DNA from: Polaribacter sejongensis
GTDB taxonomy: Bacteria > Bacteroidota > Bacteroidia > Flavobacteriales > Flavobacteriaceae
NCBI RefSeq assembly: GCF_038024065.1
Contig: NZ_CP150667.1
Location: 248,001-312,000 of the forward strand
Length of the DNA stretch: 64,000 bases
Direction: 5' to 3'
In this document: positions 3,469 through 34,056 of the stretch, piece after piece
Position numbering within the stretch: the first letter of the stretch is position 1
How the letters are laid out: each line of letters begins with the position of its first letter
Made by a program: the position numbers and the translations under genes
Notes under the pieces: generated by a model
The model's input: only the letters and a program-made list of their open reading frames with translations
What the model was told of the DNA's origin: nothing
Database searches by the model: none

Positions 3469-3539
3469 GATGTTGTTTTTTTAATTAATAATTATCTAAA
3501 ATTTGTAATGCAATAGAAGCTTTATCTGTAAGTAAAAAA

Positions 3540-3615
3540 CACATTCCATTTAGGAATTAAAAAATATCGTGCTTTTTATAGAAAAGCTTTTTAGTTAATT
3601 CTTAAATGGAATGTG
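3540..3615 (-). terminator. Long stem-loop terminator of the kduI-kduD-DUF4861 operon
   Basis: A 21-bp inverted repeat (arms 3540-3560 and 3595-3615, one non-Watson-Crick position) encloses a 34-nt loop that can itself form a small AAAAGC/GCTTTT hairpin. Read on the minus strand, the stem is followed directly by TTTTTT. It lies 14 bp past the DUF4861 stop. The arms are unusually long for a simple terminator. Confidence 0.7.
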
Positions 3616-3628
3616 ATAAATAATGACT

Positions 3629-5580: not shown

Positions 5581-5583
5581 AAC

Positions 5584-12203: not shown

Positions 12204-15200
12204 ATGAAAAAAAAGAATTACTTAAGGGGCAACTTTAATAAGTTCACAAGTTTTTTTAAACCTCTTCCGTTAACCGCTTTATTTTTAATTGTATTTATAA
12301 CCAATGGGTACAGTATAAATAATACAGTTAATAATAATGGAGAAATTAATTTACAGCAATTAACAATTACTGGTACTGTCTTATCTGATGGAATAGGCGG
12401 TCCAATACCAGGAGTTAGTATACTTGTAAAAGGAACAAATATAGGTGCAATTACAGATTTTGATGGTAATTATACTATTAACGTACCGTCATCTAATTCT
12501 ATTTTAGTTTTCAGTTATATTGGCTTTACCACAATAGAAAAAAAGGTAGATAATAATAAAACTATAAATGTAACATTAACTGCTGATGTTAGTGAACTAG
12601 ATGAAATTATTGTTGTTGGATATGGTGTTGCCAAAAAAGAAACTTTAACGGGCGCCGTAGAACAAGTAAAAGCAAAAGCTTTTCAAGATTTAGCAGTAAC
12701 AAGTCCTGCATTAGCACTTCAAGGTAGAACACCAGGTTTAACAGTAACAAGATCATCTACAAGACCAGGAGGAGAAGGTTTAGGTTTTTTAATTCGTGGA
12801 CAAACATCGGTAAACGGAATTGCTCCGTTATTGGTAATTGATGGAGTTCCTGCATTAAACAACTCCTCTTTTTCAGACATGAACCCAGATGATGTTGATA
12901 ATATTAGTATTCTTAAAGGTGCATCTGCTTCTATATATGGAGCACGTGGTGCTGGTGGGGTAATTATTGTAACAACTAAAAAAGGTAAAGGAGAAGTAAA
13001 AGTAGAAGCAAGTACTGTTTTAAGACACTCTACAATTGGTATTCGTCCTCCATCACCAACAATGCAAGAATATGCTAGTGTTTATTTAGAAGCAGCATCT
13101 AATGATGTAAATCCGTATTATTTCTTTTGGGATAAAGAATCATTAGAAGGTATGGCAGCAGGAGAAGAACGTATTTATGAAAACGGAATTCTTGGAAATA
13201 TTTATTTAGGAAATGGAAATTTATTTGATCAAATGTATGGGAGTACATTTTCTAACCAACATAATGTAAGTATTTCTGGTTCTACAGAAAAAAGTGATTT
13301 TCGTCTTTCTGGAGGATACGATCATAATGTAGGTGGTTTAAAAACAACTTACGATGGTGCAAAAAAATACAACTTTGCATTTAACTATAATTACAACGTT
13401 AACGAAAAATTAAAGATTGGTGTAAATGTTAGTTATTTTCACAAACACTTTTCTGGTCCTTCAACTGGGCTTGGTTCAGAATCTCTTAGTTATGATGCTC
13501 CTTTGTTTTTGGCTAAAAACCCATTCGGACAATGGAATTCTAACTTTGGTGTAATTGGTGGAGGAAACAACGCTATTGCAAGTACTGTAGATGGTGGTCG
13601 TACCAATAATAAAACAGAACAATTTAGATTTATATTTTCTACAAATTATAAAATAACAGATAATTTAAGCTTTGCAGGAACTTTTTCTATGGCTAGAGAT
13701 TTAAAGAATTATCAAAAATATGTTTTAAACGTACCTACTTACGGTTGGTTTGGTAATAAAGCAAACTCATCTGTAAATACAACTCCATATATATATGAAG
13801 AAAAAGATGAAGGTACTTACAAGAATATTAAAGGGGCTTTAAATTATAAAAAGAGTTTTGGAAATCATAATTTAACAGGAACTTTAGCTATAGAAGGAGA
13901 GTTAAAAACTAGTAAAAATTTAGATGTAAGAAGAGATGGTTTTGAAGATTATGGAGTATATGATTTAAACCTTGCACCTATAGACGTTAATGTTGCCACC
14001 AATGGAGGCGCAGGTACTTACGGTTTTTACGGATATATTGCTCGTGTAAATTATGATTATAAACAAAAATATCTTTTAGAATTACAAGGGCGTAGAGACG
14101 GTTCTTCTAGATTTGCCGAAGGATATAAATTTTTTAATTATGGTTCTTTAACTGCTGGTTGGGTAGTTTCTAATGAAGATTTTTTAAGTGATAATAATAT
14201 TCTATCATTTTTAAAACTAAGAGGAGGTTATGGAGATTTAGGTAGTGTAAGTGGAGTAAGTACATTTGGTTATTTACAAGGAGTAAGTTTTGGTACAAGT
14301 TTATTTGGCCAAAATGCTGGATGGCAAACTACTGCAACTGCAAATGGAGCCTTTAGCACATCTACATCTTGGGAACATATTCAGAATCAGGAAATTGGTT
14401 TAGATTTTAGATTGTTAAATGATAAAGTTTATGGTTCTGTAGATTTCTTTAAGAAAAAGAATATTGGTATGTTAATTAGAGGAAAAGTAGCAGAAGTTTT
14501 TGGAGCTACAGAGCCTGTTACAAACTTAGGAGTAATGAAAACTACTGGTTGGGAAGTTGTTTTAGGTTGGAGAGATAGAGTTGGTGAATTTGACTTAGGC
14601 ATATCTGCAAACATGAGCGATACCAGAAATGTTTTATTAAGTTATGAAGGTAGAGAAAGTGATAATGCAGATTTAGGTTTTGCAGAAGGCTTAAATTTAG
14701 CTAGTGACGGAAACTTAAGAGAAGGAGATCCTTTAAATTCTTTTTATATGTATAAAACAGATGGATTCTTTAAAGATGAAGCAGAAGTTGATGCATATTA
14801 TGCAAAATACACAGAAACTGCGGCAGGTATAATTCCTTCAGAATTTAATGCAGATACAAGATTGCGTCCGGGTGATGTTAAAATTGTAGATACCAATGGC
14901 GATAATATAATTAACGATAAAGATTTAGAATATCAAGGAGATAATTCTTCTCATTATGTGTTTGGGGTAAATTTAGATGCTACTTATAAAAACTGGGATA
15001 TCTCAGCATTTTTTCAAGGTACGTTACAACAAAATGTACACAGAACTGGTTACTTAGCATATCCTTTTGCTAGAAGATATACCAACCATACATCTGCCTT
15101 TTTAGGGCAAACATGGACAGAAGAAAACCCTACTGCAGAATTTCCAAGAACATCAACAAATTATTTACGTGCCGCTTGGAATTATGAATACAGCGATTTT

Positions 15201-15443
15201 ATGTTACAAAATAATGCTTATGTAAGATTAAAATCTCTTGTAATTGGGTATAACTTCGAAGATCTTAAAATAGGTAAAACCAATATCAACAAATTAAGAG
15301 TTTACTTCTCTGGAAATGATTTATTCGAACTTTCTACTTTAGATGATGGTTACGATCCAGAATCTACATCAAATACAAATGGTAGTAATGCTTCTTACCC
15401 ATTTATGCGTACTTGGGCTTTTGGAGTAAAAGTATCACTTTAA
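12204..15443 (+). CDS. SusC-like TonB-dependent outer-membrane transporter
   Basis: This 1079-residue outer-membrane importer is for oligosaccharides. It has an N-terminal signal (hydrophobic stretch around residues 20-37) and a carboxypeptidase-regulatory-like domain (ITGTVLSDGIGGPIPGVSI region, about 50-130). A TonB-box-like LDEIIVVGYG follows, then the plug (LLVIDGVPALNN and ILKGASASIYGARGAGGVI) and a 22-strand-type barrel ending in GVKVSL. It lacks the STN domain, so it is not wired to an ECF sigma/FecR pair, consistent with control by the HTCS upstream. It pairs with the SusD-like gene 32 bp downstream. The 267-bp upstream gap should hold the HTCS-activated promoter; no canonical -7 element was recognised there. 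Confidence 0.95.
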   Translation: MKKKNYLRGNFNKFTSFFKPLPLTALFLIVFITNGYSINNTVNNNGEINLQQLTITGTVLSDGIGGPIPGVSILVKGTNIGAITDFDGNYTINVPSSNSILVFSYIGFTTIEKKVDNNKTINVTLTADVSELDEIIVVGYGVAKKETLTGAVEQVKAKAFQDLAVTSPALALQGRTPGLTVTRSSTRPGGEGLGFLIRGQTSVNGIAPLLVIDGVPALNNSSFSDMNPDDVDNISILKGASASIYGARGAGGVIIVTTKKGKGEVKVEASTVLRHSTIGIRPPSPTMQEYASVYLEAASNDVNPYYFFWDKESLEGMAAGEERIYENGILGNIYLGNGNLFDQMYGSTFSNQHNVSISGSTEKSDFRLSGGYDHNVGGLKTTYDGAKKYNFAFNYNYNVNEKLKIGVNVSYFHKHFSGPSTGLGSESLSYDAPLFLAKNPFGQWNSNFGVIGGGNNAIASTVDGGRTNNKTEQFRFIFSTNYKITDNLSFAGTFSMARDLKNYQKYVLNVPTYGWFGNKANSSVNTTPYIYEEKDEGTYKNIKGALNYKKSFGNHNLTGTLAIEGELKTSKNLDVRRDGFEDYGVYDLNLAPIDVNVATNGGAGTYGFYGYIARVNYDYKQKYLLELQGRRDGSSRFAEGYKFFNYGSLTAGWVVSNEDFLSDNNILSFLKLRGGYGDLGSVSGVSTFGYLQGVSFGTSLFGQNAGWQTTATANGAFSTSTSWEHIQNQEIGLDFRLLNDKVYGSVDFFKKKNIGMLIRGKVAEVFGATEPVTNLGVMKTTGWEVVLGWRDRVGEFDLGISANMSDTRNVLLSYEGRESDNADLGFAEGLNLASDGNLREGDPLNSFYMYKTDGFFKDEAEVDAYYAKYTETAAGIIPSEFNADTRLRPGDVKIVDTNGDNIINDKDLEYQGDNSSHYVFGVNLDATYKNWDISAFFQGTLQQNVHRTGYLAYPFARRYTNHTSAFLGQTWTEENPTAEFPRTSTNYLRAAWNYEYSDFMLQNNAYVRLKSLVIGYNFEDLKIGKTNINKLRVYFSGNDLFELSTLDDGYDPESTSNTNGSNASYPFMRTWAFGVKVSL

Positions 15444-15475
15444 AGAAATTCTAATCATATAATTAAAATATTAAG

Positions 15476-17257
15476 ATGAAAAAAATAATAAATATTATTC
15501 TACCATGTTTCATGGTTTTCTTCACCTCTTGTGAAGATGATTTTATAGACTTAACTCCGTTAGCGAGTATTACTGAAGATGTGTATTTTTCTGAACCAAT
15601 ACATTACGAGCAAAATGCAAATTCTTTTTACCGACAAATGATTGCTTTTAGACCGACAGGAGGAAGTAATATTGCTGATTTTATGGATTATGGTACAGAT
15701 TTAACTTCTTATACAGAAGGTACTCAGCAAGATTATGGAAGAGGAGTTGTTAGTTTACAACAAGTAGATAGCTATTGGAATAATGCGTATTCTTACATAC
15801 GTGCTAACAATGTGTTATTAAAACGTGCAGAGAGTTATGCCGGAGATGTTAATGACATTAAAGAATACATTGCCATTGCTAAGTTTTTTAGAGCATGGAA
15901 TTATTACTTTTTAGTACAACGATATGGAGGAGTACCTTTAATAACCAAAGTTTTAGATACAGATTCAGAAGAACTAAAATCACCAAGAAATAGTAGGTAT
16001 GAGGTAGTTGCACAAGTATTAAAAGACTTAGAAGAAGCAATAGTAGATTTACCATTAGAACAAAATATTGGAACTGATAATAAAGGTAAATTGAGTAAGT
16101 GGGCTGCAATGGCTTTTAAAGGAAGAGTTCTTTTATATGAGGCAACTTGGATGAAATATGTACAAACTTCTACAGATGGAGATGGTGTCTCAATGGGAGC
16201 GGGTAGTGCAGGCTATAGTGCAAGTAATGTAGATACCTATTTACAAGAAGCTGTTAGTGTATTAAAAACAGTGATGGATCAAGGTGGTTATGAATTATGG
16301 AATTATAATTCTTTATTAGATAATAAGAGTTCTTTCTATTTATTTAATTTAGAAGATGGTGGTTCTAATCCTGCAGGTTTAGATAAATCTACAAATAAAG
16401 AATTTATTCTTTATAATAAATACGATTTTGATTTATATAAAGGAAATACAGGTTTAACACATGGTGCTAGAGGTAGGTTACAACCAAGTAGAAAAATGAT
16501 GGATATGTTTTTATGTTTAGATGGAAAAACTATAAATGATTCTCCTTTATTTAAAGGTTATGTAAAAACGTCTGATGAATACCAAAATCGTGATTACAGA
16601 ATGAGAGCTTATTTTGCAGATTATGATACTTATGAAGTTCCTGTAGACGGATCTATTGTTTTAAACCAACAATTAAGTACCGGATATTACAATCAAAAGT
16701 TTTGTACTTATAACTATGGAGAGTACAGACAAACTAAAGAAGAATCTGCAGATTACCCACAAATACGTTTGGCAGCTGTTTATTTAATGTATGCAGAAGC
16801 ATTGGTAGAATTAAATGGAAGTTTAACTGATACGCAAATGAGTGAGTCTATTAATAAAGTAAAAGCAAGAGCAGGTTTACCAGCTATTTCTAATAGTTCT
16901 TTAATAGCTAATGGAATGAATATTAAAGATGAAATTAGAAGAGAACGTACAATTGAATTGTATGCGGAAAACTCTAGATATGTAGATTTAAAACGTTGGG
17001 GTTTAGCAGAAGAAGTTTTAGGAGAACCAATTGCAGGTGCAGTTATTGAAGGCACAGATTATGAAAACAATGCCGCATTGTATAACCCAAGTAGTTATCA
17101 ATTTGGAGAAATTTCTGTAGCTACCGGTTCAGGTACGTTAAAAGCAGTTCAATTAGATGCTGTTTCTAACAGAAACTTTTCTAGAACAAATTATTTACAC
17201 CCACTTCCTACATTACAAGTTGGTCAAACAGAAGTACTACAAAACCCTGGTTATTAA
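15476..17257 (+). CDS. SusD-like surface glycan-binding lipoprotein
   Basis: This 593-residue RagB/SusD-family protein forms the lid on the SusC partner and captures glycan at the cell surface. The lipobox is FFTSC (Cys19), followed by acidic residues (EDDF), as is common for surface-exported Bacteroidota lipoproteins. Family features are seen: the AIAKFFRAWNYYFLVQRYGG helix, the C-terminal IRRERTIELYAENSRYVDLKRWG segment (typical RRERxxEL and DLxRW signature) and the ending YLHPLPTLQ. Its place immediately after susC supports the call. Specificity cannot be read from the sequence. Confidence 0.95.
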   Translation: MKKIINIILPCFMVFFTSCEDDFIDLTPLASITEDVYFSEPIHYEQNANSFYRQMIAFRPTGGSNIADFMDYGTDLTSYTEGTQQDYGRGVVSLQQVDSYWNNAYSYIRANNVLLKRAESYAGDVNDIKEYIAIAKFFRAWNYYFLVQRYGGVPLITKVLDTDSEELKSPRNSRYEVVAQVLKDLEEAIVDLPLEQNIGTDNKGKLSKWAAMAFKGRVLLYEATWMKYVQTSTDGDGVSMGAGSAGYSASNVDTYLQEAVSVLKTVMDQGGYELWNYNSLLDNKSSFYLFNLEDGGSNPAGLDKSTNKEFILYNKYDFDLYKGNTGLTHGARGRLQPSRKMMDMFLCLDGKTINDSPLFKGYVKTSDEYQNRDYRMRAYFADYDTYEVPVDGSIVLNQQLSTGYYNQKFCTYNYGEYRQTKEESADYPQIRLAAVYLMYAEALVELNGSLTDTQMSESINKVKARAGLPAISNSSLIANGMNIKDEIRRERTIELYAENSRYVDLKRWGLAEEVLGEPIAGAVIEGTDYENNAALYNPSSYQFGEISVATGSGTLKAVQLDAVSNRNFSRTNYLHPLPTLQVGQTEVLQNPGY

Positions 17258-18478: not shown

Positions 18479-19705
18479 ATGAAAATAAAATTTTATAAAA
18501 CAATATTGGGGCTATTAATTAGCACTTCAGTTTTGGTTGGATGTACTTCACCAAAAAAGGAACCAATAAAATTGGATGTTGAACATGTCTTGGATTTAAG
18601 TGTTTTAAAAACAAGGAAAACTGTAGCAGGATTATCAAGTGCTGTTGACTTTCCAAGAAGTATTGAAAAAGGAAATAAAAATTGGGATTTTGTAGGAGTA
18701 AAAGATTGGTGTAGCGGTTTTTGGCCTGGGGTGTTATGGTATGCTTATGAATTCTCTGGAGATGAGTCGATTAAAAAACAAGCAGAACGTTTTACTGCTC
18801 CAATAAAAGAAATAGCGTATACATCTGCAGAAAACCATGATATTGGTTTTATGGTGTATTGTAGTTTTGGAAACGGATACCGATTAACAGGAAATGAAGA
18901 ATATAAAAAAGTATTACTTTCTGCAGCAGATACTTTAGCAACACTTTATAACCCTAATGTAGGATCTCTTCTTTCTTGGCCTATATATAAAGATAAATAC
19001 ATGCATAATACAATCATAGATAATATGATGAATTTAGAATTGTTATTCTGGGCTTCTAAAAACGGAGGAAGTAAAAAGTTGTATGAGATTGCAGAAAGTC
19101 ATGCAGAAGTAACAATGAACAATATTGTTCGTAAGGATAGTGCTGTTTATCATTTAGCTTCATTTAATGATAAAACAGGAGAGTTTATTAAAGGCTATAC
19201 ACATCAAGGTTATGCAAACGAATCTATGTGGGCAAGAGGTCAAACTTGGGGAATTTATGGTTTTGCAATGGCGTATAGAGAAACAGGAAGAAAAGACTTT
19301 TTAAATACATCTATAAAATTAACAGAGCATTATTTAGACAGATTGCCTAAAGATGGTATTCCGTTTTGGGATTTTGACGATCCAAGAATTCCGAATGCTC
19401 CAAAAGATGCTTCTGCAGCTGCAGTAGCTGCCTGTGGTATGTTAGAATTATCTTGTCTTGTTCAGGATAAAGAGTTAAAGCAAAAATATTTTAAAGAAGC
19501 AAAAAGGTTTTTAGCAAAACTATCTTCAGAAGAGTATTATAGTGGAGAAACAAATCAAGCTTTATTATTACATTCTACTGGTCATCATCCTAAAAATTCA
19601 GAAATAGATACACCTATTATTTATGCAGATTATTATTATATGGAAGCAATGCTAAAGTTAAGACAGATTGAAAATAAACAAGATTTAGGTTTATTAAAAA
19701 AATAA
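18479..19705 (+). CDS. GH88 unsaturated glucuronyl hydrolase, lipoprotein
   Basis: GH88 enzymes hydrate the 4,5-double bond left on a uronate by a polysaccharide lyase, which releases it as 5-keto-4-deoxyuronate, the substrate of KduI. The 408-residue protein is a lipoprotein (lipobox LVGC, Cys22), so it probably works in the periplasm. It has the (alpha/alpha)6-barrel signatures: Asp121 in NHDIGFMVY and Asp181 in NTIIDNMMNLEL, matching the two aspartates of characterised unsaturated glucuronyl hydrolases, and MWARGQTWGIYGFA. It opens the enzyme part of the operon just after the hairpin at 18412. GH105 is a less likely alternative. Confidence 0.92.
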   Translation: MKIKFYKTILGLLISTSVLVGCTSPKKEPIKLDVEHVLDLSVLKTRKTVAGLSSAVDFPRSIEKGNKNWDFVGVKDWCSGFWPGVLWYAYEFSGDESIKKQAERFTAPIKEIAYTSAENHDIGFMVYCSFGNGYRLTGNEEYKKVLLSAADTLATLYNPNVGSLLSWPIYKDKYMHNTIIDNMMNLELLFWASKNGGSKKLYEIAESHAEVTMNNIVRKDSAVYHLASFNDKTGEFIKGYTHQGYANESMWARGQTWGIYGFAMAYRETGRKDFLNTSIKLTEHYLDRLPKDGIPFWDFDDPRIPNAPKDASAAAVAACGMLELSCLVQDKELKQKYFKEAKRFLAKLSSEEYYSGETNQALLLHSTGHHPKNSEIDTPIIYADYYYMEAMLKLRQIENKQDLGLLKK

Positions 19706-19725: not shown

Positions 19726-21171
19726 ATGAGTAAAGTATCAACTTATCAATTTATATTAATTGCAATTCTATTTTGGAATTGTAAAAGCAACAGTAATTCT
19801 AATTCTGCTAATAAAATTATAAATATTGATAGTTTGTCTGAGTTAATTGAGTTTGCAGCAAAAGATAATGTGGTTGTAAAGATGCAACCTGGGGTTTATA
19901 ATTTGGATGATTCTAAATATGGTCAAAATTTAATCATAAAAAAACATGACCTTCAAGGAAAACCAAAGTCAGATTACCCTATAACAGCATTGATTAATTT
20001 TTCTGGAAATAATAATCAATTTTTATTAGATGGTGTAGTTCTAAAAATTAATTCAGAATTACATCAAACGTATGGTGAAAATCATATTTTCGAAATTTTT
20101 GTAAGTGGAAATAACAATAAAATAGAAGGGTTAAAAGTGCAAGATAAAGGACATGAAGCACCTCTAAAAGGAGCCATTATGATGCATGTAATGGGAGATG
20201 ACAATACCATAACAAATGTAGGTTTATTTATAAAAGGCTCTTACCCTTATGGATATGGGCATTTATTAGGTAAAGGAGCAAAGCCTTTGGTAAAACCAAG
20301 AAAACACTCTTCTTTATTAGTTTCTGGTAAAAATACAAAATTAATTGCTTGTAGAGTAGTTACACATGGTTTTGGTCACGGAATTGTAATGCAAGGAGCG
20401 CAAAACACTTTAATTAAAGATTGTTATGTAGAAGGTAAAATGCGTTCTACAGATGAGATGTTAGCAGAAACTTCTGGCCCTGCTTTTAGTGTTGATTTTA
20501 AAAGTGATTATCCGCCAGGAAAAATTATTTCAAATGAAATAAAAGCACTTTCTGAAGATGGAGTAAGATCATATCCGTATGGTTATTTGGTAGGTAGAAA
20601 AACAGAAAACATTACGGTAATAAATACTACCGTAAAAAATATGCGATCTGGGTTTGATTTAAGTGCGCATATAGGTAAAACATTAATTGATGGTTGTACA
20701 GCATTAGAATGTCAAGAAAAAGGATATTCAGTATCAAAAAATGCTATTATCAAAAACTCAAAAGGAGATGCTATGTATGGTCCATTGTTAAGTTTTCATC
20801 AGAACAATACAGAAAATTGTAATGTAGAATTGGAATTAATAAATACGGTAGGTTCATATCCCGTAAAACGTTTGATGGAAATTAACGGAACGGGACATAA
20901 AATAAAGGTTACAAATTTCGAGAATAAAAAGCGTACTAAGATTACACCAATAGTATTTGGAGAATCATTTTGGTCTGATGTTCATAAATACAGATACCCC
21001 AACAAAGATTCTAAAGAGTTTTCTGGTGCCTATAATATTACATTAATAAATGAAACCGGAATGCCAATAGAATTTGGTGAGTTGTCTAAAAATTGTAAAG
21101 TGATTACAAACGGAAATATTTTAACAGATTTAGGAGAGAATAATAAATTAAACCAACAGTATGAATTTTAG
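19726..21171 (+). CDS. Parallel beta-helix lipoprotein, candidate polysaccharide lyase (paralogue A)
   Basis: This 481-residue lipoprotein (lipobox FWNC, Cys19) has the repeated short beta-strand turns of a right-handed parallel beta-helix (VSGNNNKIEGLKV, VMGDDNTITNVGL, INTTVKNMRSGFDLS). I cannot place it in a named lyase family; PL6-like or another beta-helix lyase or a glycoside hydrolase are possible. It is clearly paralogous to the protein at 32680. Strictly shared blocks are PYGYGHLLGKG, the HGfGHGI-MQGA pattern, DCYVEGKMR, MLAETSG, FKSDYPPGKI, NMRSGFDLS, CQEKG and SKGDAMYGP. The conserved His, Lys, Glu, Asp and Tyr in these blocks are candidate active-site residues. The stop overlaps the start of the SGNH gene by 11 bp. 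Confidence 0.75.
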   Translation: MSKVSTYQFILIAILFWNCKSNSNSNSANKIINIDSLSELIEFAAKDNVVVKMQPGVYNLDDSKYGQNLIIKKHDLQGKPKSDYPITALINFSGNNNQFLLDGVVLKINSELHQTYGENHIFEIFVSGNNNKIEGLKVQDKGHEAPLKGAIMMHVMGDDNTITNVGLFIKGSYPYGYGHLLGKGAKPLVKPRKHSSLLVSGKNTKLIACRVVTHGFGHGIVMQGAQNTLIKDCYVEGKMRSTDEMLAETSGPAFSVDFKSDYPPGKIISNEIKALSEDGVRSYPYGYLVGRKTENITVINTTVKNMRSGFDLSAHIGKTLIDGCTALECQEKGYSVSKNAIIKNSKGDAMYGPLLSFHQNNTENCNVELELINTVGSYPVKRLMEINGTGHKIKVTNFENKKRTKITPIVFGESFWSDVHKYRYPNKDSKEFSGAYNITLINETGMPIEFGELSKNCKVITNGNILTDLGENNKLNQQYEF

Positions 21172-21952
21172 TAAACAAATAAATATCATCTCTTTTTTAG
21201 TCTTTGTAGTGTTTTTAAGTGGATGTAAAGCATCAAAAATTAAAAGCGATACTAAATTGATTTCTAAAAAAGTTGAAACTCCATTTACGTTAAACTTAGA
21301 AAATAATGGTGTAGCAGGAAATACAACGATAAATTTATTAGGTAGATTAGAGAAGGATGTTTTAAGTAAAAATGCAGATCTAGTAATACTTATGGTAGGT
21401 ACAAATGATATGTTAAATTCTAAGAAATTAGTGTCTTATGACGATTATAAATTAAACTTAGATAAGATTGTAAAAGAAATAAAGAAAACAAATGCACAAG
21501 TATTATTAATAAGTCCCCCAACTGTAGATAGTATTTATTTGTTTAATAGACACGATAAGAATTTATTTAAAGAAGGACCAAACCAAAAACTTTATAAAGT
21601 AAAACAAATTATAAAGGAAGTTTCAGAAGCTAATAATACACTTTTTGTAGATAATAATTTAGCATTTAAAACATTGAACTTACCTGTTCATAATGAGGAT
21701 AAATACATAAGGAATAAAAAGAACAGTAATGTAGAAGATGGCGTGCACCTTACTCCATTAGGCTATAAATTAATTGCTGAAAACGTTTATCAATTTCTTG
21801 AAAATAATAATTTATCTAAAAAATATAGAAACATTATTTGCTTTGGAGATTCTTTAACAAAAGGATCTGGTGCAAAAGGAGCAGGTACTATTACAGGAGA
21901 AAATTATCCTTCTTTTTTATATAAAATGCTTACTAATAATAGCGAAAATTAA
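21161..21952 (+). CDS. SGNH/GDSL-family esterase with circularly permuted motif order, lipoprotein
   Basis: This 263-residue lipoprotein (lipobox LSGC, Cys22) has all four SGNH blocks, but the first is moved to the C-terminus. The order is block II NNGVAGNTT (Gly53 oxyanion), block III VGTNDM (Asn82), block V DGVHLTPLGY (Asp193, His196), then block I CFGDSLTKG with the nucleophile Ser231. In ordinary SGNH hydrolases block I is N-terminal. Joining this C-terminus (NYPSFLYKML) to its N-terminal FTLNLENNGVAGNTT would restore a canonical fold, which indicates circular permutation. The likely role is removing acetyl or other acyl groups from the glycan in the periplasm; the substrate is unknown. 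The gene overlaps the beta-helix gene by 11 bp, so the two are probably translationally coupled. Confidence 0.85.
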   Translation: MNFSKQINIISFLVFVVFLSGCKASKIKSDTKLISKKVETPFTLNLENNGVAGNTTINLLGRLEKDVLSKNADLVILMVGTNDMLNSKKLVSYDDYKLNLDKIVKEIKKTNAQVLLISPPTVDSIYLFNRHDKNLFKEGPNQKLYKVKQIIKEVSEANNTLFVDNNLAFKTLNLPVHNEDKYIRNKKNSNVEDGVHLTPLGYKLIAENVYQFLENNNLSKKYRNIICFGDSLTKGSGAKGAGTITGENYPSFLYKMLTNNSEN

Positions 21953-22006: not shown

Positions 22007-23566
22007 ATGAAAAAAACCATTATAATAATAACAACATTATTTTGTTGCTTCTCTATGTTTTCACAAAGTACAGATGAGGTAGCATCTAGTCATTTTTCAA
22101 CTTTAAATTGGGTTATATTAATTGTTTTCCTTTTAGGAACAACTTTAATTGGTGAACTCGTAAAAAATAAAGACAAAGGTTTAGATGCCTTTTTTAAAGG
22201 AGGAAATAACTTACCTTGGTGGGCAGTTTCATTATCATTAATAGCTACTAAAACAAGTGTTGCTACATTTATTGCAGTTCCGGCATTTATATTTTCTATG
22301 CAAGGAAATTTAACCTATTTACAAATGACAATAGGTTTTGCTTTAGGAAATGTACTCTTCGTTTATGTATTATTAAAAGAATATTATGAAGAAGGTATTT
22401 TTAGTCCATACGATTTTATTCAAAAAAGATTAGGCGTAAAAACAAGTCAACTATCACGTACTTTTTTTATGATCGGAGCTACTATGAGTCAAGGTGTACG
22501 CTTATTGGGTACAGCATTGGTTCTTAGTGTTATTACCGGACAAAGTACTGTTTTGTGTATTGCTATTATAGCAGTATTTGCTATTGTTTGGTCTTATATT
22601 GGAGGGATTACAACGGTTGTTTGGACGGATGCCATTCAGTTTGTAATTTTTATTTTCGGAGCCTGTTTTGCATTGTTTTATGCCATTGGCGATATTCCTG
22701 GTGGTTTTGGAGAAATGATGGCAATTGCAGATGACAAAGCTAAACTAGTTCTCTTTGATTTATCTTTAGATCCTCATAAAACCTATACTTTATGGGTTGG
22801 TATTTTAGGATGTACTTTTTTTGAATTTGGATCAAACGCAGTCGATCAAGTAGTTACGCAGAGAGCTTTATGTTGTAAAAATTTAAAAGAAGCAAGAAAA
22901 GCTGTGGCATTTTCTGTAATAGGTGTTGCTACAACATGGATTATGGCTTTTGTAGGTATAGGTTTAGTGGCTTATTATGATATATATCCGTTATCTGATT
23001 TAGTAGATAAATCGATGCAATTAGAACCAGACAGAATATTTCCGTATTTTGTTGTAAACGAATTACCAAATGGTATTTCTGGGTTAATTATAGCAGCAAT
23101 GTTTGCCGCAGGAATTTCAACTTTAGATTCAGCATTAACAGCACTTTCTCAAACCAGTGTTATGGGAGTTGGTCCTTTAGTTTATCCGAAGTTAAAAACA
23201 ATGCACGAAGACAAAGTTGTAAAAATATCTAAACAAGCTATTATTGTTTGGGGATTAATTTTAGCACTTTTAGCGTATGCATTTAGCTTTTTTCAAGACG
23301 GAGGTTTATTAGCTTTAGGTTTTAAAGTTCCTGGTTATGCGTATGGTACTTTAATAGGTATTGCTTTTTTGGCATTAATGAGAAAAGGATCTTTTACAGG
23401 TATTTTAATAGGTGCAATTTTAACCATTTTAATAATTGCATGGATGCATTATGAAGGAATCAGTTTTTTCTGGTGGTTTCCTGTAGGAGCAGCAGTAGTA
23501 ATAATTGTTGCATTAATACATTCAAAATTAACGAGTAAAATAAATCAAAAACCAACTGTTGTATAG
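22007..23566 (+). CDS. Sodium/solute symporter (SSS family)
   Basis: This 519-residue inner-membrane transporter has about 13 further hydrophobic helices after an N-terminal segment (MKKTIIIITTLFCCFSMFSQ) that resembles a cleavable signal peptide, a feature often seen in SSS proteins from PULs. Family motifs include GGNNLPWWAVSLSLIATKTS, the YIGGITTVVWTDAIQF segment and FAAGISTLDSALTALS. It probably imports the monosaccharide or unsaturated uronate product with Na+, feeding KduI. It sits between the esterase and the FAD oxidoreductase on short spacers (54 and 42 bp), so it belongs to the same operon. Confidence 0.92.
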   Translation: MKKTIIIITTLFCCFSMFSQSTDEVASSHFSTLNWVILIVFLLGTTLIGELVKNKDKGLDAFFKGGNNLPWWAVSLSLIATKTSVATFIAVPAFIFSMQGNLTYLQMTIGFALGNVLFVYVLLKEYYEEGIFSPYDFIQKRLGVKTSQLSRTFFMIGATMSQGVRLLGTALVLSVITGQSTVLCIAIIAVFAIVWSYIGGITTVVWTDAIQFVIFIFGACFALFYAIGDIPGGFGEMMAIADDKAKLVLFDLSLDPHKTYTLWVGILGCTFFEFGSNAVDQVVTQRALCCKNLKEARKAVAFSVIGVATTWIMAFVGIGLVAYYDIYPLSDLVDKSMQLEPDRIFPYFVVNELPNGISGLIIAAMFAAGISTLDSALTALSQTSVMGVGPLVYPKLKTMHEDKVVKISKQAIIVWGLILALLAYAFSFFQDGGLLALGFKVPGYAYGTLIGIAFLALMRKGSFTGILIGAILTILIIAWMHYEGISFFWWFPVGAAVVIIVALIHSKLTSKINQKPTVV

Positions 23567-23608: not shown

Positions 23609-24994
23609 ATGAAAACATTTAAAACAACATTAATAGACGGTTACGATGTAATTGTTGTAGGAGGAGGAGTTTCTGGAAGTCATGCAGCAATAGCATCAGC
23701 AAAAACAGGTGCAAAGACATTATTAATTGAGCAATTTGGTTTTTTAGGAGGTTCATTAACAGCAATGGGAGTTGGGCCAATGATGACTTTTCATAATAAA
23801 TCTGGAAGGCAATTGGTTTTTGGTTCTCCAAACGATATGGTAAATAGATTAATAGAAAAAGGTGCTAGTCCTGGTCATATTTTAGATAGTACTGGGTATT
23901 GTTCTACAGTAACACCGTTTGATGCAGAAATGTTAAAAGTAACATTAGAAGATATGGTTGTAGAAGCTGGAGCAGAAATTTTATATCATACTCGTTTAAT
24001 AGATATTGCTCAGGATGGTAACAAAATAAAATCGGTATTTATACACAACAAAGGAGGGATTCAAGAAATACCTGCAAAAATATTTATAGACGCTAGTGGA
24101 GATAGTGAGATGGTAAAACTATCTGGAGTTCCTTTTACTGAAGGTAGACCTGGAGATGGAAAGTCACAACCTATGACAACCAATATAAAGGTTGGTAATG
24201 TTGAAACAAAAAAGTTAAGAGAATACATGATTAATAATTGGGATCAGTTTGATGCCGATGAAAGAGCAGAAGATAAAGCTGAGGTTTTAAAAAGAACAAA
24301 ACGTATTTCTACTTGGGGTTTTTATGATTTATGGAATGCAGCAAAAGAAAAAGGAGAAGTAACAATACCAAGAGATAACGTATTATTTTTTGAAACAAAT
24401 ACCGAAGGAGAATTTATATTTAATACCTCTCGTGTTTTAGGATTTAACCCTGTAAATCCTTTTGATTTAAGTAAAGCCGAAACATTAGGACGTAAACAAT
24501 GTGTAGAGATTTATAAGTTCTTAAAAAAATATGCTCCAGGTTTCGAAAATGCAACATTTGTAAGTACTGCACCTCATATTGGTGTTCGAGAATCTCGTCA
24601 TCCATTGGCTAAAAAAGTTTTAGTTTCTGATGATTTAGTTAACGAAGTCCGCTTTAAAGAAGTGATTGCAGTTGGTGGCTATCCTATAGATATTCATTCT
24701 CCAGATGGAGGAAATACAGATTCAGTTCATTTAAATGCAGAGGGCGCTTATTACATACCTAAAGATTCTTTATTAGTAAATGAGGTAGAAAATCTTGTGC
24801 TTTCTGGTAGAGCAATTGGTGCAGATCATCATGCAAGTGCAGCTGTACGTGTAACACCTATTGCTATGGCTATTGGTCAGGGAGCAGGAACATTGGCAGC
24901 ATTATCAGTACTTAATAATGTAAGTCCAGAGGAGCTTGACTATTCTAAACTTGAAGCCAAGTTAAAAGAACATGGAGCTTATTTGGGAGAATAA
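23609..24994 (+). CDS. FAD-dependent oxidoreductase (FAD_oxidored-like)
   Basis: This 461-residue protein has no signal peptide and is probably cytoplasmic. The N-terminal Rossmann motif DVIVVGGGVSGSHAA (GGGVSG at 18-23) and the ribose-binding acid Glu41 (LLIEQ) show FAD binding; the C-terminal AIGADHHASAAVRVTPIAMA region is the second conserved FAD contact of this family. The substrate is unknown. A role in oxidising or reducing a sugar-derived intermediate is inferred only from its place between the symporter and the lyase. It resembles enzymes annotated simply as FAD-dependent oxidoreductases in many PULs. Confidence 0.85.
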   Translation: MKTFKTTLIDGYDVIVVGGGVSGSHAAIASAKTGAKTLLIEQFGFLGGSLTAMGVGPMMTFHNKSGRQLVFGSPNDMVNRLIEKGASPGHILDSTGYCSTVTPFDAEMLKVTLEDMVVEAGAEILYHTRLIDIAQDGNKIKSVFIHNKGGIQEIPAKIFIDASGDSEMVKLSGVPFTEGRPGDGKSQPMTTNIKVGNVETKKLREYMINNWDQFDADERAEDKAEVLKRTKRISTWGFYDLWNAAKEKGEVTIPRDNVLFFETNTEGEFIFNTSRVLGFNPVNPFDLSKAETLGRKQCVEIYKFLKKYAPGFENATFVSTAPHIGVRESRHPLAKKVLVSDDLVNEVRFKEVIAVGGYPIDIHSPDGGNTDSVHLNAEGAYYIPKDSLLVNEVENLVLSGRAIGADHHASAAVRVTPIAMAIGQGAGTLAALSVLNNVSPEELDYSKLEAKLKEHGAYLGE

Positions 24995-25025
24995 GGTAGT
25001 TTTAAATACAAATAAATATTTACAA

Positions 25026-27809: not shown

Positions 27810-30134
27810 ATGTATAGAAACATGAAAATAAAAATAGTACTTGTTGTTTGTTTACTTTGTTTTGTAACACTTAATGGACAGAATGTAAATTCTAGTGTTT
27901 CTCGTTCTAATAATAAAGTGAAATCTAAAATAGATTGGCCATCATTTATGAGTCAACATGATTTAGTTTGGGAAGATATTCCGAAGCAATGGGCAGAAGG
28001 AGCCTTTGTTGGAAATGGTCAGTTAGGAATGATGTTGTATGCTAAATTAGATGAAAATCGATTTAACTTTCATGTGGGACGTCAGGATGTAACAGACCAT
28101 AGAAAAGCACCAAACAGAAAAACATCTATGGGTGTAAAAGGTACTAATTTATTAGATTTTTCTAGATTGGATATTGGAAAAATGGTTTTACATCCCGCAG
28201 GGAAAATTAAAACAGCAAGATTACGACAAGATTTATGGAATGCAGAAATACGAGGAACTATTATTACTGATTTAGGAGAAATAAAATTTCGTGCATTTAC
28301 TCCATACAATGATAAAGTACAAGTTATTGAAGCTTCTTCTACAGAAAGAAAAAACGGTGTAAAAATTCCTTTTTCTTGGGAATGGTTGCCAGGTGATGCT
28401 TCTTGTTCTAGAGCAGTGATTAAGTACGAGAGATATAAAGATGAGTACAAAATGAACCCTTATAGTCCAGAAATTAAGGTTACAGATAAACATGCTGTTT
28501 GTGTACAAAAATTAGAAGCAGGTGGAGATTATGCTACAGCTTGGTCTGAAGTAAAGTCAAAAGATAAACAAAAAAGCACAATATATATATCAACAGCAAA
28601 CGAAGTACCTGCTTTAGATGTTTCTGCAGGTGTTGCGATACATAATGTTAATGAAGCAAAAAAAATAGGATTAAAAAAAATAGAGAAATCACATCGTGAG
28701 TGGTGGCATAATTATTTTAAGAAATCTTTTTTAAGTTTTCCAGATGCTAGAATGGAATCATTTTATTGGATTCAGTTATATAAAATGGCAGCAAGTTCTC
28801 GTGCAGATGGACCCGCTTTAGACTTAATGGGACCTTTCTTTAAAAATACTTCTTGGCCAGGGCTTTGGTGGAATCTTAATGTTCAACTTACGTATTGGTC
28901 TTTTAATGCTAGTAACCATCAGGATATCGCTATAAATTTTATCAAACTAATTGATGATCATTTTGAGTATCAAATTAAATATAAATCTGGTAAAAATTTA
29001 GGAGATTTTGCTTGGGCTACACATAATTATTGGATGTATTATAAATTTCAAGGTGATGAAGCTTCCATTCTTAAAAAATGGGTACCTAAAGCAATGAAAA
29101 TTGCAGAAATTTATGAGCAAAAATTAGAAAGAAATCCAAAAGGTCAATTAGAACTTAAACCTATGGGATCTCCAGAATACATGGGTTTTAAATCTTTTAA
29201 AAACACCAATTACAATTTAGCTATTTTACGTTGGTTGTTAAATAGTTTAATTGATGCTAGTGAGAAAGCAAATGAGAATAGTATAGAAGTAGCACATTGG
29301 AAAGAGTTATTAGTAGATCTTATTCCGTATCCTGTAGATGAAAATGGATTAATGATTGGTAGTGATCAACCGGTAGATATATCACATCGTCATTATTCTC
29401 ATCTTTTAGCCTTATATCCATTGTTTCAATTAGATCCTAATTCAGCAAGAGATAGAGATTTAGTAGTAAAATCTGTTTTACATTGGCATAATATAGAAGA
29501 AGGAAAAGGATTAGCAGGTTACTCATTTACAGGAGCATCATCATTATACGCTGCATTGGGTATGGGAAATGAAGCTGTAGCTGTTATGCAAGATTTTTTA
29601 GATGCTAATATTGGAAAAGCACATTTTTTAACCAACACCTTTTATATGGAAGGAACAAACCCTGTTGTAGAAACTCCATTAAGTGGTGCTGCTGCTATTA
29701 TGGAATATAGTTTGCAAAGTTTGGGAGAAGAAATTAGAATATTTCCGGCCTTACCTAAAGATTGGAAAGAAGCTTCTTTTAGAGATTTATTAGCAAAAGG
29801 AGGTTTTGAAGTAAGTGCTTCTATGAAAGAAGAAAAAGTAGAATGGGTTGTTATTAAAAGTTTATCGGGTCAACCTTGTGTAGTACATATTCCTGGATGG
29901 AATGGTATTTCATCAGATATAAAAACAACAATAGAAAAAGTAGCGAAAAGTAAATTTAAAATTTTGCTTAAAAAAGGAGAAACGATAGTTTTAAGTCCTG
30001 AAGGAAAAAAAGTAGAACCTGTATTAAAAGCTGTACTACACTCAAAATCTAAAATTAATTATTTTGGAATAAAAAAAGGAGCTTCACGTAAACCATTATT
30101 AGAAGAACCTATTTTAGAATACAAGAAGCAATAG
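27810..30134 (+). CDS. Divergent GH95-like (alpha/alpha)6 protein
   Basis: This secreted 774-residue protein has a signal peptide (core IVLVVCLLCFVTL, likely cut after LNG or Q). The first ATG (27810) is used; an ATG at 27822 is as likely. An N-terminal beta-domain (WAEGAFVGNGQLGMMLY) and a helical toroid with WWNLNVQLTYWS (Asn355, Asn357) and HRHYSHLLALYP resemble GH95. Against the neighbouring canonical GH95, the QEW segment that holds the catalytic Glu is replaced by LMIGSDQPVD, and the DGNFG aspartate aligns with ETPLSG. So the usual alpha-fucosidase or galactosidase mechanism may not apply. It could be a new specificity, a related clan member, or a non-catalytic binder. It lies 8 bp before the GH95 gene. 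Confidence 0.75.
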   Translation: MYRNMKIKIVLVVCLLCFVTLNGQNVNSSVSRSNNKVKSKIDWPSFMSQHDLVWEDIPKQWAEGAFVGNGQLGMMLYAKLDENRFNFHVGRQDVTDHRKAPNRKTSMGVKGTNLLDFSRLDIGKMVLHPAGKIKTARLRQDLWNAEIRGTIITDLGEIKFRAFTPYNDKVQVIEASSTERKNGVKIPFSWEWLPGDASCSRAVIKYERYKDEYKMNPYSPEIKVTDKHAVCVQKLEAGGDYATAWSEVKSKDKQKSTIYISTANEVPALDVSAGVAIHNVNEAKKIGLKKIEKSHREWWHNYFKKSFLSFPDARMESFYWIQLYKMAASSRADGPALDLMGPFFKNTSWPGLWWNLNVQLTYWSFNASNHQDIAINFIKLIDDHFEYQIKYKSGKNLGDFAWATHNYWMYYKFQGDEASILKKWVPKAMKIAEIYEQKLERNPKGQLELKPMGSPEYMGFKSFKNTNYNLAILRWLLNSLIDASEKANENSIEVAHWKELLVDLIPYPVDENGLMIGSDQPVDISHRHYSHLLALYPLFQLDPNSARDRDLVVKSVLHWHNIEEGKGLAGYSFTGASSLYAALGMGNEAVAVMQDFLDANIGKAHFLTNTFYMEGTNPVVETPLSGAAAIMEYSLQSLGEEIRIFPALPKDWKEASFRDLLAKGGFEVSASMKEEKVEWVVIKSLSGQPCVVHIPGWNGISSDIKTTIEKVAKSKFKILLKKGETIVLSPEGKKVEPVLKAVLHSKSKINYFGIKKGASRKPLLEEPILEYKKQ

Positions 30135-30142
30135 AATTAAAT

Positions 30143-32647
30143 ATGATTGAATTAAAAAATAAGAAGATTTTATGTAGGTTGCTTTTGGTTTTAATCTGTT
30201 TTTTTTTAGTGAATTGTAATACTAAAATAGAAGAAGGTGAGGTTTTAAACGAAGCTTTAATTTTAAAATATAAAACCCCAGCAAAAGCATGGACAGAAGC
30301 TTTACCTATAGGAAATGGTAGGCAAGGAGCTATGATTTATGGAGGAGCGTTGGTAGAACATATTCAGTTGAATGAGAATACATTGTACTCTGGAGAGCCA
30401 TCTTCTACTTATAAAGGAACCAATATTAGACCAACTTACAATAAGGTAATGCAACTTTTAGCTTCGGATAAATATACTGAAGCAGAAAAAATTATGAAAA
30501 CAAATTGGTTGGGTAGACTTCATCAAAGTTATCAACCTTTTGGAGATTTATATTTTCACTTTAAAGGAGATTCAATCTCTAATTACGAGCGAACTTTAGA
30601 TATAGAAAATTCTGTTTCTACAGTTAACTATCGCTCTCAGAAAGTAAATTATAAGCGAGAAGTTTTAGCGAGTTATCCTGATAATATAATCGCTATAAAA
30701 ATTTCTTCGGATAAAAAAGAAGCTATTTCTTTTGATACTTTTTTAGAATCTCTACATCCTACAAAAATAATAGTAGAAGGAAAGACTATTATTTTAAAAG
30801 GTCAGGCTCCGGGTTTTGTATTAAGAAGAAGTTTAGAAAATGTAGAGAGTAATGGTGATGAACATAAATATCCAGAAATTTTTAATAAAGATGGTTCTAG
30901 AAAACCTTTTGCAAAACAAGTACTTTATGGAGATGAGGTTTCTGGTAAAGGAATGTTTTTTGAAGCAAGACTTGAAATTAAAAATAAAGGAGGAAAAATT
31001 GTAGCTACAGAAAAAGGACTTTCTGTTTCCGATGCAGATGAGGTAGTCGTGCTTTTATCAATGGCGACTAGTTTTAATGGTTTTGACAAGAGCCCAAGTA
31101 CGCAAGGAAAAGATCCTGCCAAGGTAAATGAGCAAATTTTATCAGAATTAAAAGATAAAACCTACAACCAAATAAAAGCAACTCATAAAAAAGATTATTC
31201 AAATTTGTTTAATCGTGTTCAGTTTTCGTTAGAAAATCAAGCATCTACTCTAGATATTTCTATAGATGCTCGTCTTAAAAATTATGCAACAATTCCAGAT
31301 TTAGACCTAAATACATTGTTGTTTCAGTACGGAAGATATCTTATGATTTCTGGTTCTAGAGCAGGAGGGCAGCCATTAAATTTACAAGGTATTTGGAACG
31401 ATAAGGTTATTCCGCCATGGAATTCTGCCTATACAATGAATATAAATGCTCAAATGAATTATTGGCCTGCAGAAGTAACCAATCTTTCAGAATGTCATGA
31501 GCCATTTTTTAGATTGGTAAAAGAATTGGCTATTACAGGTAAAGAAACTGCAAGAAATATGTACGGAAATCCTGGTTGGGTAACGCATCATAATACTGAT
31601 ATTTGGAGGCCTTCTTATCCTGCGGATAACGCAGTAATGTATTCTTATTGGCCTGTTGGTGCTGGTTGGCTTACAAGTCATTTGTGGCAACATTATCAGT
31701 TTACAAATGATATTACATTTTTAAAAGAAGAGGGGTATCCTTTATTAAAAGGTAGTGCAACTTTTTTTGCGAGTTGGTTGGTAGAAAATAAAGAAGGGTA
31801 TTTAGTAACACCAGTGGGTACATCACCAGAAAATAAATTTTATTATGATGAAAAGCATTCATCTACAGTAAGTGCTGGTGGAACCATGGATATGTCTATT
31901 ATAAGAGAAAATTTTGAAACTGTTATTAAAGCATCTAAAATATTAAATGTTGATGCAGGTTTTAGAGCCTACATAGAAAAATTGATGCATAAACTTCTGC
32001 CTTTTAAAATAGGTGAAAGAGGACAATTACAAGAATGGCAATCAGATTTTTTAGAAACCGATGCGCATCACAGGCATTTATCTCATTTATATGGTTTTCA
32101 TCCAGGAAATCAAATAACAAAAGAGAAAACACCAGCACTTTTTAAAGCCGTTCATAAAACGTTAGAATTACGAGGAGATGAAGCTACCGGTTGGAGTATG
32201 GGATGGAAAATTAATTTTTGGGCAAGAATGCAAGACGGTAATCATGCTTATAAAATTATAAATAATTTATTTTCTTTTGTTGATGAAACAAGTAAACATA
32301 GACATGGCGGGTTGTATGCAAATTTGTTTGATGCGCATCCACCATTTCAAATAGATGGTAATTTTGGCTATACTGCAGGTGTTGCAGAAATGTTGTTGCA
32401 AAGTCATACAGAAGAAATACATATTTTACCTGCACTTCCTGATGCGTGGTCTACGGGTTCTATTAAAGGATTAAAAGCAAGAGGAAATGTTGTTGTAGAT
32501 ATAATTTGGAAAGATGGCAAACTGATGAAAGTATCTTTAGAATCATTAAAAGATCAAATAGTGTTTGTAAAATATGGAGAGTTTAAAAAGAGTATTGAAT
32601 TAAAGGCAGGGGAAAAAGAGGTTTTAGATGTAGCATTTTTTTATTAA
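30143..32647 (+). CDS. GH95 alpha-L-fucosidase or alpha-L-galactosidase, lipoprotein
   Basis: GH95 enzymes are inverting exo-hydrolases that remove terminal alpha-L-fucose or alpha-L-galactose. The 834-residue protein has a lipobox (LVNC, Cys25), so it is membrane-anchored. The N-terminal domain starts at AWTEALPIGNGRQGAMIYGG. The catalytic set is intact: TMNINAQMNYWP (Asn433, Asn435), QEW (Glu631) followed by HHRHLSHLYGFHPG, and DGNFG (Asp738), as in bifidobacterial AfcA. It indicates fucose or L-galactose branches on the glycan. No fucose isomerase or kinase genes are in the window. It shares the transcript with the divergent GH95-like gene upstream. Confidence 0.92.
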   Translation: MIELKNKKILCRLLLVLICFFLVNCNTKIEEGEVLNEALILKYKTPAKAWTEALPIGNGRQGAMIYGGALVEHIQLNENTLYSGEPSSTYKGTNIRPTYNKVMQLLASDKYTEAEKIMKTNWLGRLHQSYQPFGDLYFHFKGDSISNYERTLDIENSVSTVNYRSQKVNYKREVLASYPDNIIAIKISSDKKEAISFDTFLESLHPTKIIVEGKTIILKGQAPGFVLRRSLENVESNGDEHKYPEIFNKDGSRKPFAKQVLYGDEVSGKGMFFEARLEIKNKGGKIVATEKGLSVSDADEVVVLLSMATSFNGFDKSPSTQGKDPAKVNEQILSELKDKTYNQIKATHKKDYSNLFNRVQFSLENQASTLDISIDARLKNYATIPDLDLNTLLFQYGRYLMISGSRAGGQPLNLQGIWNDKVIPPWNSAYTMNINAQMNYWPAEVTNLSECHEPFFRLVKELAITGKETARNMYGNPGWVTHHNTDIWRPSYPADNAVMYSYWPVGAGWLTSHLWQHYQFTNDITFLKEEGYPLLKGSATFFASWLVENKEGYLVTPVGTSPENKFYYDEKHSSTVSAGGTMDMSIIRENFETVIKASKILNVDAGFRAYIEKLMHKLLPFKIGERGQLQEWQSDFLETDAHHRHLSHLYGFHPGNQITKEKTPALFKAVHKTLELRGDEATGWSMGWKINFWARMQDGNHAYKIINNLFSFVDETSKHRHGGLYANLFDAHPPFQIDGNFGYTAGVAEMLLQSHTEEIHILPALPDAWSTGSIKGLKARGNVVVDIIWKDGKLMKVSLESLKDQIVFVKYGEFKKSIELKAGEKEVLDVAFFY

Positions 32648-32679: not shown

Positions 32680-34056
32680 ATGAAAAAAATAATTAGCGTT
32701 TTGTTATTACTAATAGTGGTATTTTCAATGAAAGCAGAAAACAGTTCTCGTGATACTATTTTTATAAAATCATTAAATAAACTGGCTCATTATGCAGGGA
32801 AAAGTAATGTTTTGGTTAAAATGAAGCCAGGTGAATATACTATTAGTGCTATTAAAATTGGAGGGTTAAGTGTCTTTAAACGAGATAAAACAAGTAAAAG
32901 AAAAGATGATTTTAGAATTGGTTCATTAATTCACTTTTCAGGAAACAATAGTAGTTACTTTTTGTCTGGTGTTGTTATAAATATAGATGCAAAACTTCAT
33001 AATAATTTTAGTAAGAGTGAGTTTAGTGAAGTACTAGTAAGTGGCTCTAATAATTATATAAACGGATTAAAAGCTAGAGATATTGGTGAACATGTTCCTG
33101 CTAATAGAGTACAAATGTTGCGAATAATGGGAGATAATAATACTATAGAAAATGCAGATTTATTTGTGCATGGATCTACTCCTTATGGCTATGGTCATTT
33201 ATTAGGTAAAGGTAAAAATGCATTAGTGCCTTTGCATAAACATTCTGTTTTATTGGTTGAAGGGACAAATACAAAATTATTAGGATGTAAAGTTGTTACG
33301 CACGCTTATGGACATGGTATTTTTATGCAAGGTGCAGTAAATACGCTATTAAAAGATTGTTATGTTGAAGGAAAAATGAGAGCAACTAACGATATGTTAG
33401 CAGAAACTTCTGGTTTAGCTTTTGATGCTGGTTTTAAAAGTGATTATCCTCCAGGAAAAATTATGCCTAATCAAATTAAATCATTGTCGGAAGATGGTAT
33501 TAGAACTTATGGATCTGGCGGACTAAATGGACGAAGAACAAAAGGAGTAACAGTTATAAATTGCACGGTAAAAAATATGCGATCAGGTTTTGATTTAAGT
33601 GCAAATTTACCGCCAACAAAAGTTGTAGGGTCTACAGCTATTGGTTGTCAGGAAAAAGGATTTTCTATAGGAACAGATGGTGTTATTAAGGATTCTAAAG
33701 GAGATGCTATGTATGGACCTATTATTACTTTTGTAGGAAATAATGTAAAAAATTGTGTAGTAGATTTAGAACTTGTAGATACTGTAAGTACATATAATGT
33801 TTCTCGTTTAGCAGAAATTAATGGATCTGGTCACCAAATAACCTTTCGAAATTATCAAGGAAACAAGCGTAGTATTGTATCTCCAATAGTGTTTGGTGAA
33901 TCTTTTTGGAACGATGTTCATCGATTTAGAATACCTGATGCAAAGCATGGAGATTATTCTGGAGCAGCAAATATTAAGCTTTTTAATTATACAGGAATGC
34001 CAGTTTTATTAAATGATTTAACGAGTAATTGTACGGTTACTAATATTGATAAATAA
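32680..34056 (+). CDS. Parallel beta-helix secreted protein, candidate polysaccharide lyase (paralogue B)
   Basis: This 458-residue protein has a cleavable signal (MKKIISVLLLLIVVFSMKA) and no lipobox, unlike its lipoprotein paralogue at 19726. It shares the same beta-helix blocks: TPYGYGHLLGKGKNAL, THAYGHGIFMQGA, LKDCYVEGKMRATND, MLAETSG, FKSDYPPGKI, LSEDGIRTYG, NMRSGFDLSA, CQEKG and DSKGDAMYGP. The two must have arisen by duplication and then taken different locations (soluble against anchored). The molecular activity is unassigned. It is the last gene of the GH95 cluster before a 290-bp gap. Confidence 0.75.
   Translation: MKKIISVLLLLIVVFSMKAENSSRDTIFIKSLNKLAHYAGKSNVLVKMKPGEYTISAIKIGGLSVFKRDKTSKRKDDFRIGSLIHFSGNNSSYFLSGVVINIDAKLHNNFSKSEFSEVLVSGSNNYINGLKARDIGEHVPANRVQMLRIMGDNNTIENADLFVHGSTPYGYGHLLGKGKNALVPLHKHSVLLVEGTNTKLLGCKVVTHAYGHGIFMQGAVNTLLKDCYVEGKMRATNDMLAETSGLAFDAGFKSDYPPGKIMPNQIKSLSEDGIRTYGSGGLNGRRTKGVTVINCTVKNMRSGFDLSANLPPTKVVGSTAIGCQEKGFSIGTDGVIKDSKGDAMYGPIITFVGNNVKNCVVDLELVDTVSTYNVSRLAEINGSGHQITFRNYQGNKRSIVSPIVFGESFWNDVHRFRIPDAKHGDYSGAANIKLFNYTGMPVLLNDLTSNCTVTNIDK

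Follow-up and report, generated by a model that had tools for sequence, protein, structure and literature searches.

Evidence for circular permutation in a conserved family of SGNH esterases, represented beside FdlA-type lyase genes in Polaribacter sejongensis

When the serine block of an SGNH hydrolase comes last in the chain instead of first, is the protein a rotated version of the fold or the product of a damaged gene? This question is raised by an esterase gene in a stretch of 64,000 nucleotides from Polaribacter sejongensis (contig NZ_CP150667.1, positions 248,001 to 312,000), referred to below as the window. An earlier note on this DNA had described the gene product as a circularly permuted SGNH esterase behind a lipoprotein signal and had put the new termini between blocks I and II. 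Re-deriving the open reading frame (ORF) and its translation returned the same coordinates and residue numbers. We found that the chain runs through NNGVAGNTT (block II, Gly53), GTND (block III, Asn82), DGVH (block V, Asp193 and His196), and FGDSLTKG (block I, Ser231). Thus, all SGNH catalytic residues are present, namely the serine of block I, glycine of block II, asparagine of block III, and histidine with aspartate of block V, but the order is II-III-V-I (G-N-H-S) instead of the canonical I-II-III-V. The block II signature reads G50-x-x-G53-N54-T-T. The signal was also borne out, as the lipobox L19-S-G-C22 is visible at the end of a signal-like stretch, read from the sequence without a signal-peptide program. 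PF13472 (Lipase_GDSL_2; 75.8 bits versus a cut-off of 32.9) and PF00657 (Lipase_GDSL) each matched in two stretches, the best of which covered residues 43-204 and 43-208 and began at profile positions 32 and 42. Overall, we consider it likely that the protein is an esterase with a circularly permuted SGNH fold, that it belongs to a conserved family, and that it is here a probable O-acetylesterase beside FdlA-type lyases.

The order of the blocks proved to be a property of the family. A protein search returned 129 relatives; among the best 120, which include the window's own cluster (P0001), a motif scan placed GDS behind the other blocks in 116 (P0001-P0116), three of which did not match the DxxH pattern. 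The canonical order was found in the remaining four (P0117-P0120), which were weak matches (E 8e-11 or weaker). A scan of species-representative genomes gave at least 594 candidate stretches, at least 323 of them encoding relatives, and in the best 80 loci, which were fetched, the permuted order was present without exception. The order was called automatically in 79 loci, using one profile for the II-V part and another for block I, while L080 was assigned by reading the same table, in which block I (193-222) comes after the core match (41-113). According to the record titles, these loci belong to Bacteroidota (58), Planctomycetota (9), Lentisphaerota (6), Verrucomicrobiota (5), Fibrobacterota (1), and Kiritimatiellota (1). 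The block order reported earlier is therefore real and kept across homologues far beyond chance. In an alignment of the window protein with 75 chosen homologues, G53, N82, H196, and S231 were invariant and D193 was present in all but one sequence, and the block I segment was among the most conserved parts. Because source names of the homologues are plain (for example, SGNH/GDSL hydrolase or lysophospholipase L1-like esterase), the unusual order is invisible from annotation. The permuted gene is accessory: among 198 genomes sampled from the same phylum, at least 3, the window's own included, had a match at E <= 1e-25; this is a lower bound, with only 14 first-look candidates scored per genome.

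The predicted fold model of the window esterase has the fold of canonical SGNH members, and a structural overlay placed residues ~40-220 of the model onto canonical residues ~50-220. In a rotation test by Pfam score, the best rotation reached 86.0 and the next one 80.6. Together, the fold model, the overlay, the rotation test, and a block order shared by members of six phyla support the prediction of a circularly permuted SGNH enzyme whose new termini fall between blocks I and II. Since the order is kept in six phyla, the permuted family is probably old. In the proposed rearrangement, β1, the nucleophile elbow with Ser231, and α1 would have moved from the N to the C terminus, which would place the new termini in the α1-β2 loop and give the order G-N-H-S. 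Ser231 would then attack the ester, with His196/Asp193 acting as the base, while the Gly53 and Asn82 groups may form the oxyanion hole, as superfamily knowledge and the invariance of both residues suggest.

Residue coupling between blocks V and I pointed in the same direction. A mean-field analysis of 198 sequences (214 columns, effective number 163) ranked residues 197 and 232, which stand beside His196 and Ser231, as the top coupled pair among pairs more than five residues apart. The block I-block II pairs 236-52 and 234-51 ranked 20 and 45. On a FastTree tree built without columns 197 and 232, residue 232 changed at least nine times. Starred branches offered seven independent pairs; on average, residue 197 changed in the same direction in 3.9 of them, and in none did it go the opposite way (median p 0.125). 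The coupling is thus supportive, although not conclusive, for a position of Ser231 near His196.

The gene content of the locus bears on the likely substrate (Table 1). The esterase start overlaps the 3' end of the upstream lyase gene by 11 bases. The product of that lyase gene had no Pfam match; it matched the fucoidan lyase FdlA of Flavobacterium sp. SA-0082 (7xzd; 210 bits, E 4.3e-61) with residues 33-475 on 21-455, covering the whole catalytic domain. In 5 of the 80 loci (L009, L014, L015, L017, and L019), including those of Mariniflexile fucanivorans (L017) and Formosa algae, the permuted esterase is joined to an FdlA-like lyase in one protein of 658-674 amino acids, and in Algibacter miyuki (L007) the two are adjacent genes. 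An apparent second GDS in these fusions is GESF, sited within the lyase part. FdlA (7xz7-7xzf, PMC9410043) is homologous to both lyase genes of the window and to the lyase part of the fused proteins. In PMC9410043, FdlA is described as acting on the mannose-glucuronic acid linkage of a sulfated fucoglucuronomannan; the enzyme has F5/8 type C and Por secretion domains of its own but no esterase.

Table 1. Features of the window that bear on the permuted esterase. Fractions of 76 refer to the alignment of the window protein with 75 homologues.
Feature	Coordinates	Strand	Basis or conservation
Predicted permuted (G-N-H-S) SGNH hydrolase, 263 amino acids, lipoprotein-type signal with Cys22	21161..21952	+	
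Block II region, residues 49-57 (N-G-V-A-G53-N-T-T-I), usually second, here first behind the signal	21305..21331	+	G53 76/76
Block III, G80-T-N82-D83	21398..21409	+	N82 76/76
Block V, D193-G-V-H196	21737..21748	+	D193 75/76, H196 76/76
Block I, F228-G-D-S231-L-T-K234, nucleophile elbow, usually first, here last	21842..21862	+	S231 76/76
Homologue of fucoidan lyase FdlA, right-handed beta-helix	19726..21171	+	Similarity search; fusions
GH88-type hydrolase (PF07470), presumably unsaturated glucuronyl hydrolase	18479..19705	+	Pfam
Sodium:solute symporter (SSF)	22007..23566	+	Pfam
FAD_oxidored (PF12831)	23609..24994	+	Pfam; homologue <10 kb from permuted esterase in 48/80 loci
Two GH95 glycoside hydrolases (27810-30134 and 30143-32647)	27810..32647	+	
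Second FdlA-like lyase, without esterase domain	32680..34056	+	75-81% identical to lyase half of five fusions
SusC-like TonB receptor and SusD pair	12204..17257	+	
ManA, DUF4861 protein, gluconate 5-dehydrogenase/KduD-like short-chain dehydrogenase/reductase (SDR), KduI (mannose and unsaturated-uronate catabolism)	2497..6423	-	

The GH88, SSF, two GH95, SusCD, KduI, KduD-like SDR, and ManA genes, together with the FdlA homologues, fit a glycan that contains fucose, mannose, and glucuronate. From this gene content and the lyase-esterase fusions, we infer that the window esterase is a lipoprotein O-acetylesterase and that it works on an acetylated fucoglucuronomannan-like glycan together with the lyase. 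The lipid-anchored enzyme would remove O-acetyl groups from the algal polysaccharide, which would then be open to the co-encoded FdlA-type lyases and GH88/GH95 enzymes. A somewhat broader proposal, which we hold to be probable if a little less firmly, is that a separate ancient SGNH permutation (G-N-H-S, α1-β2 cut) became fixed in a secreted family across at least six phyla, and that its new N terminus was used for fusion to beta-helices of the fucoidan-lyase type, so that one chain would serve as both lyase and deacetylase on algal glucuronomannans.

Several other features of the locus and the family were observed. The second lyase, which is of the fused type, stands alone, while the separate esterase adjoins the other FdlA-like gene, an arrangement that amounts to fusion or split in one locus type; by eye, no esterase remnant was seen in the three forward frames behind the second lyase (34041-34400). 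The DUF4861 protein beside KduI and ManA (3629-4783) is a polysaccharide-utilization protein of the BT3233 family. An 848-amino-acid protein at 24972-27518 was found in 7 of the 80 loci and looks like a polysaccharide lyase by eye; it had no Pfam match at E <= 0.001, no NCBIfam match at E <= 1e-5, and no meaningful match in the PDB. The same genome encodes a second permuted SGNH protein of 552 amino acids (L002:1468-3126; G000:C1:199446-201104), in which the domain appears to be followed by a leucine-rich-looking repeat region and a secretion-tail-like C terminus, and the ORF ahead of it resembles, by eye, the final part of a heparinase-type lyase. Also by eye, the permuted domain stands after an alpha/beta-hydrolase-like part in two Planctomycetota proteins (L045:9023-10624 and L051:3783-5387), ahead of large C-terminal parts in Lentisphaeria (L076:9902-13297) and Planctomycetota (L084:9893-13381), and inside a 1563-amino-acid protein of Planctomycetota (L067:132-4823).

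A number of observations weigh against the permuted O-acetylesterase. The best rotation leads by only a modest Pfam margin, and the C-terminal strand lies outside the range covered by the overlay; the structural aligners seem to follow the order of the chain, and the overlay ranges agree with this. The 197-232 coupling may come partly from shared ancestry. A single origin of the family was neither shown nor rejected by a tree of the II-V region (approximately unbiased test, p 0.382). Trees that included very divergent canonical rows were messy, with four label changes among 71 rows and three among the 65 rows left after removal of six long canonical ones. The 65-row tree compared 47 permuted rows (the window, L002, and a random draw of 45 out of 80 others) with 18 taken as canonical, a label given partly by default: in the 29 frames not called permuted, block I was found upstream in 6 and not found in 22, the last being L080, and tree rows without a block I match were taken as canonical. 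We found no paper or assay tying any permuted family member to an activity. The exact glycan is uncertain, because FdlA acts on a sulfated substrate and yet no PF00884 sulfatase was found in the window. Last, only 8 of the 80 fetched loci yielded an FdlA-like gene, so the role as a lyase partner is not general, and the substrate probably differs across the permuted family.

SGNH enzymes are broad in the esters that they accept. The window domain could thus hydrolyze a non-acetyl ester, such as a methyl uronate, feruloyl, lipid, or thioester, and TesA was indeed among the fold matches of the model. However, the strongest fold and sequence matches include the acetylxylan esterases Axe2 and AlAXEase, and PMC9147238 reports acetylation for fragments of fucoidan, as distinct from fucoglucuronomannan itself. 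Neither point settles the specificity, and we regard a non-acetyl substrate as unlikely, while leaving it an appreciable chance.

The common role of the permuted family might instead be tied to the PF12831 flavoprotein and not to lyases, in which case deacylation would here ready a sugar for oxidation or strip an acyl group from another compound. In 33 of the 48 loci with a nearby FAD_oxidored homologue, it lies within about 310 bases of the match (once on the opposite strand). FAD_oxidored was also the commonest family among same-strand neighbors picked by closeness from the 80 loci (15 of 63 upstream and 15 of 49 downstream), a tally that leaves out five loci without a self ORF and all far or opposite-strand neighbors. 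The window copy is 1.7 kb from the esterase, and only two of the 11 PF12831 matches in this genome are strong (366 and 306 bits), one of them in this locus. However, no FAD_oxidored was seen in 32 of the 80 loci (in the fetched DNA, incomplete at some loci), related loci in these counts are not independent, and in two other genomes that carry a permuted gene, the flavoprotein lies within 2 kb on the same contig in one and is missing from the contig of the permuted gene in the other. Moreover, the other strong PF12831 gene of this genome has an SGNH gene of canonical order about 2 kb away; the association may thus be with SGNH esterases at large. No literature linking flavoprotein, polysaccharide-utilization locus, and fucoidan was found. 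We judge this alternative improbable.

The earlier note had left it undecided whether the permuted form was already described. Permutation itself is known: it has been described for AlgJ, AlgX (H-S-G-N/Y), PatB1, and WssI in PMC9487903, PMC4148444, and PMC10302187, and PMC5697884 likewise calls AlgX, AlgJ, and PatB1 permuted. The G-N-H-S cut, in contrast, was not found in the literature on circularly permuted SGNH, GDSL, or carbohydrate esterases (subscription papers and preprints lay outside the search). The window esterase may thus represent a conserved SGNH esterase family whose cut point is new relative to the papers searched. That it belongs to one of the published groups, AlgX/AlgJ or DHHW/PatB1, and holds nothing new seems to us very improbable. 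Those proteins also have the histidine ahead of the serine, but their blocks II and III follow the serine, whereas here both precede the histidine. Their motifs are described as DxH or DHHW and GTSYS or KDS, in place of the DxxH and GDS of the window esterase, which shows neither the H-S-G-N order, DxH, and GTSYS of AlgX/AlgJ nor the TDHHW and KDS of the DHHW family. Block order and motifs together rule out either identity. Among the 60 listed of 69 PDB matches of the permuted profile, none was AlgX, AlgJ, or PatB1 by name; Campylobacter PatB (8tlb), which is distinct from Bacillus PatB1, was present. The G-N-H-S order was not noticed among the same 60, as judged by match positions only, and the lists of fold matches prove no absence of this order among solved structures. 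Least credible of all is a truncated or rearranged gene of this strain that lost its original block I and kept a chance or vestigial C-terminal GDS, since, although the best Pfam stretches start inside the domain, the homologues and loci share one order with an invariant Ser231 in a highly conserved block I segment, and the block I profile printed no second match for any of 87 permuted frames. The frameshift or missing upstream GDS domain that the earlier note had considered as a strain artefact is likewise excluded by the homologues.

If the permutation holds, the permuted SGNH enzymes, of which few are known, would gain a second natural cut point. The rotated form is a conserved bacterial family, here beside genes of seaweed-polysaccharide lyases, and not a one-off error. 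With well over a hundred members, it would offer a case for studying folding, evolution by duplication, and domain fusion, and it points to a family of esterases fused to fucoidan-type lyases in some species.

Compared to known systems, the closest canonical relatives are AlAXEase (7ddy) and Axe2 (3w7v/4jj4), which share the fold over residues ~40-220 and sequence similarity in the II-V part; their block I is N-terminal, while that of the window esterase is C-terminal. The metal-dependent NodB fold of PgaB is unrelated to SGNH. As a circularly permuted CE4 member, PgaB is another permuted carbohydrate esterase, according to a title cited in PMC11713874. PatB1 of the DHHW family shares a permuted SGNH-like core of the H-S-G-N type, but is described with KDS, DXRY, and TDHHW motifs and has a different cut, in contrast to the DGVH and FGDS of the window esterase. 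The O-acetyltransferases AlgX, AlgJ, and WssI resemble the window esterase in having a permuted SGNH core that acts on polysaccharides. Their orders, described as H-S-G-N, H-S-G-Y, or H-S-G-D, imply a cut between blocks III and V, and they carry DxH, GTSYS, and Tyr/Asp variants in place of DGVH and FGDSL. AlgX, AlgJ, and WssI are transferases of biosynthesis, whereas the window esterase, with its predicted cut between blocks I and II and its canonical motifs, lies in a degradation locus.
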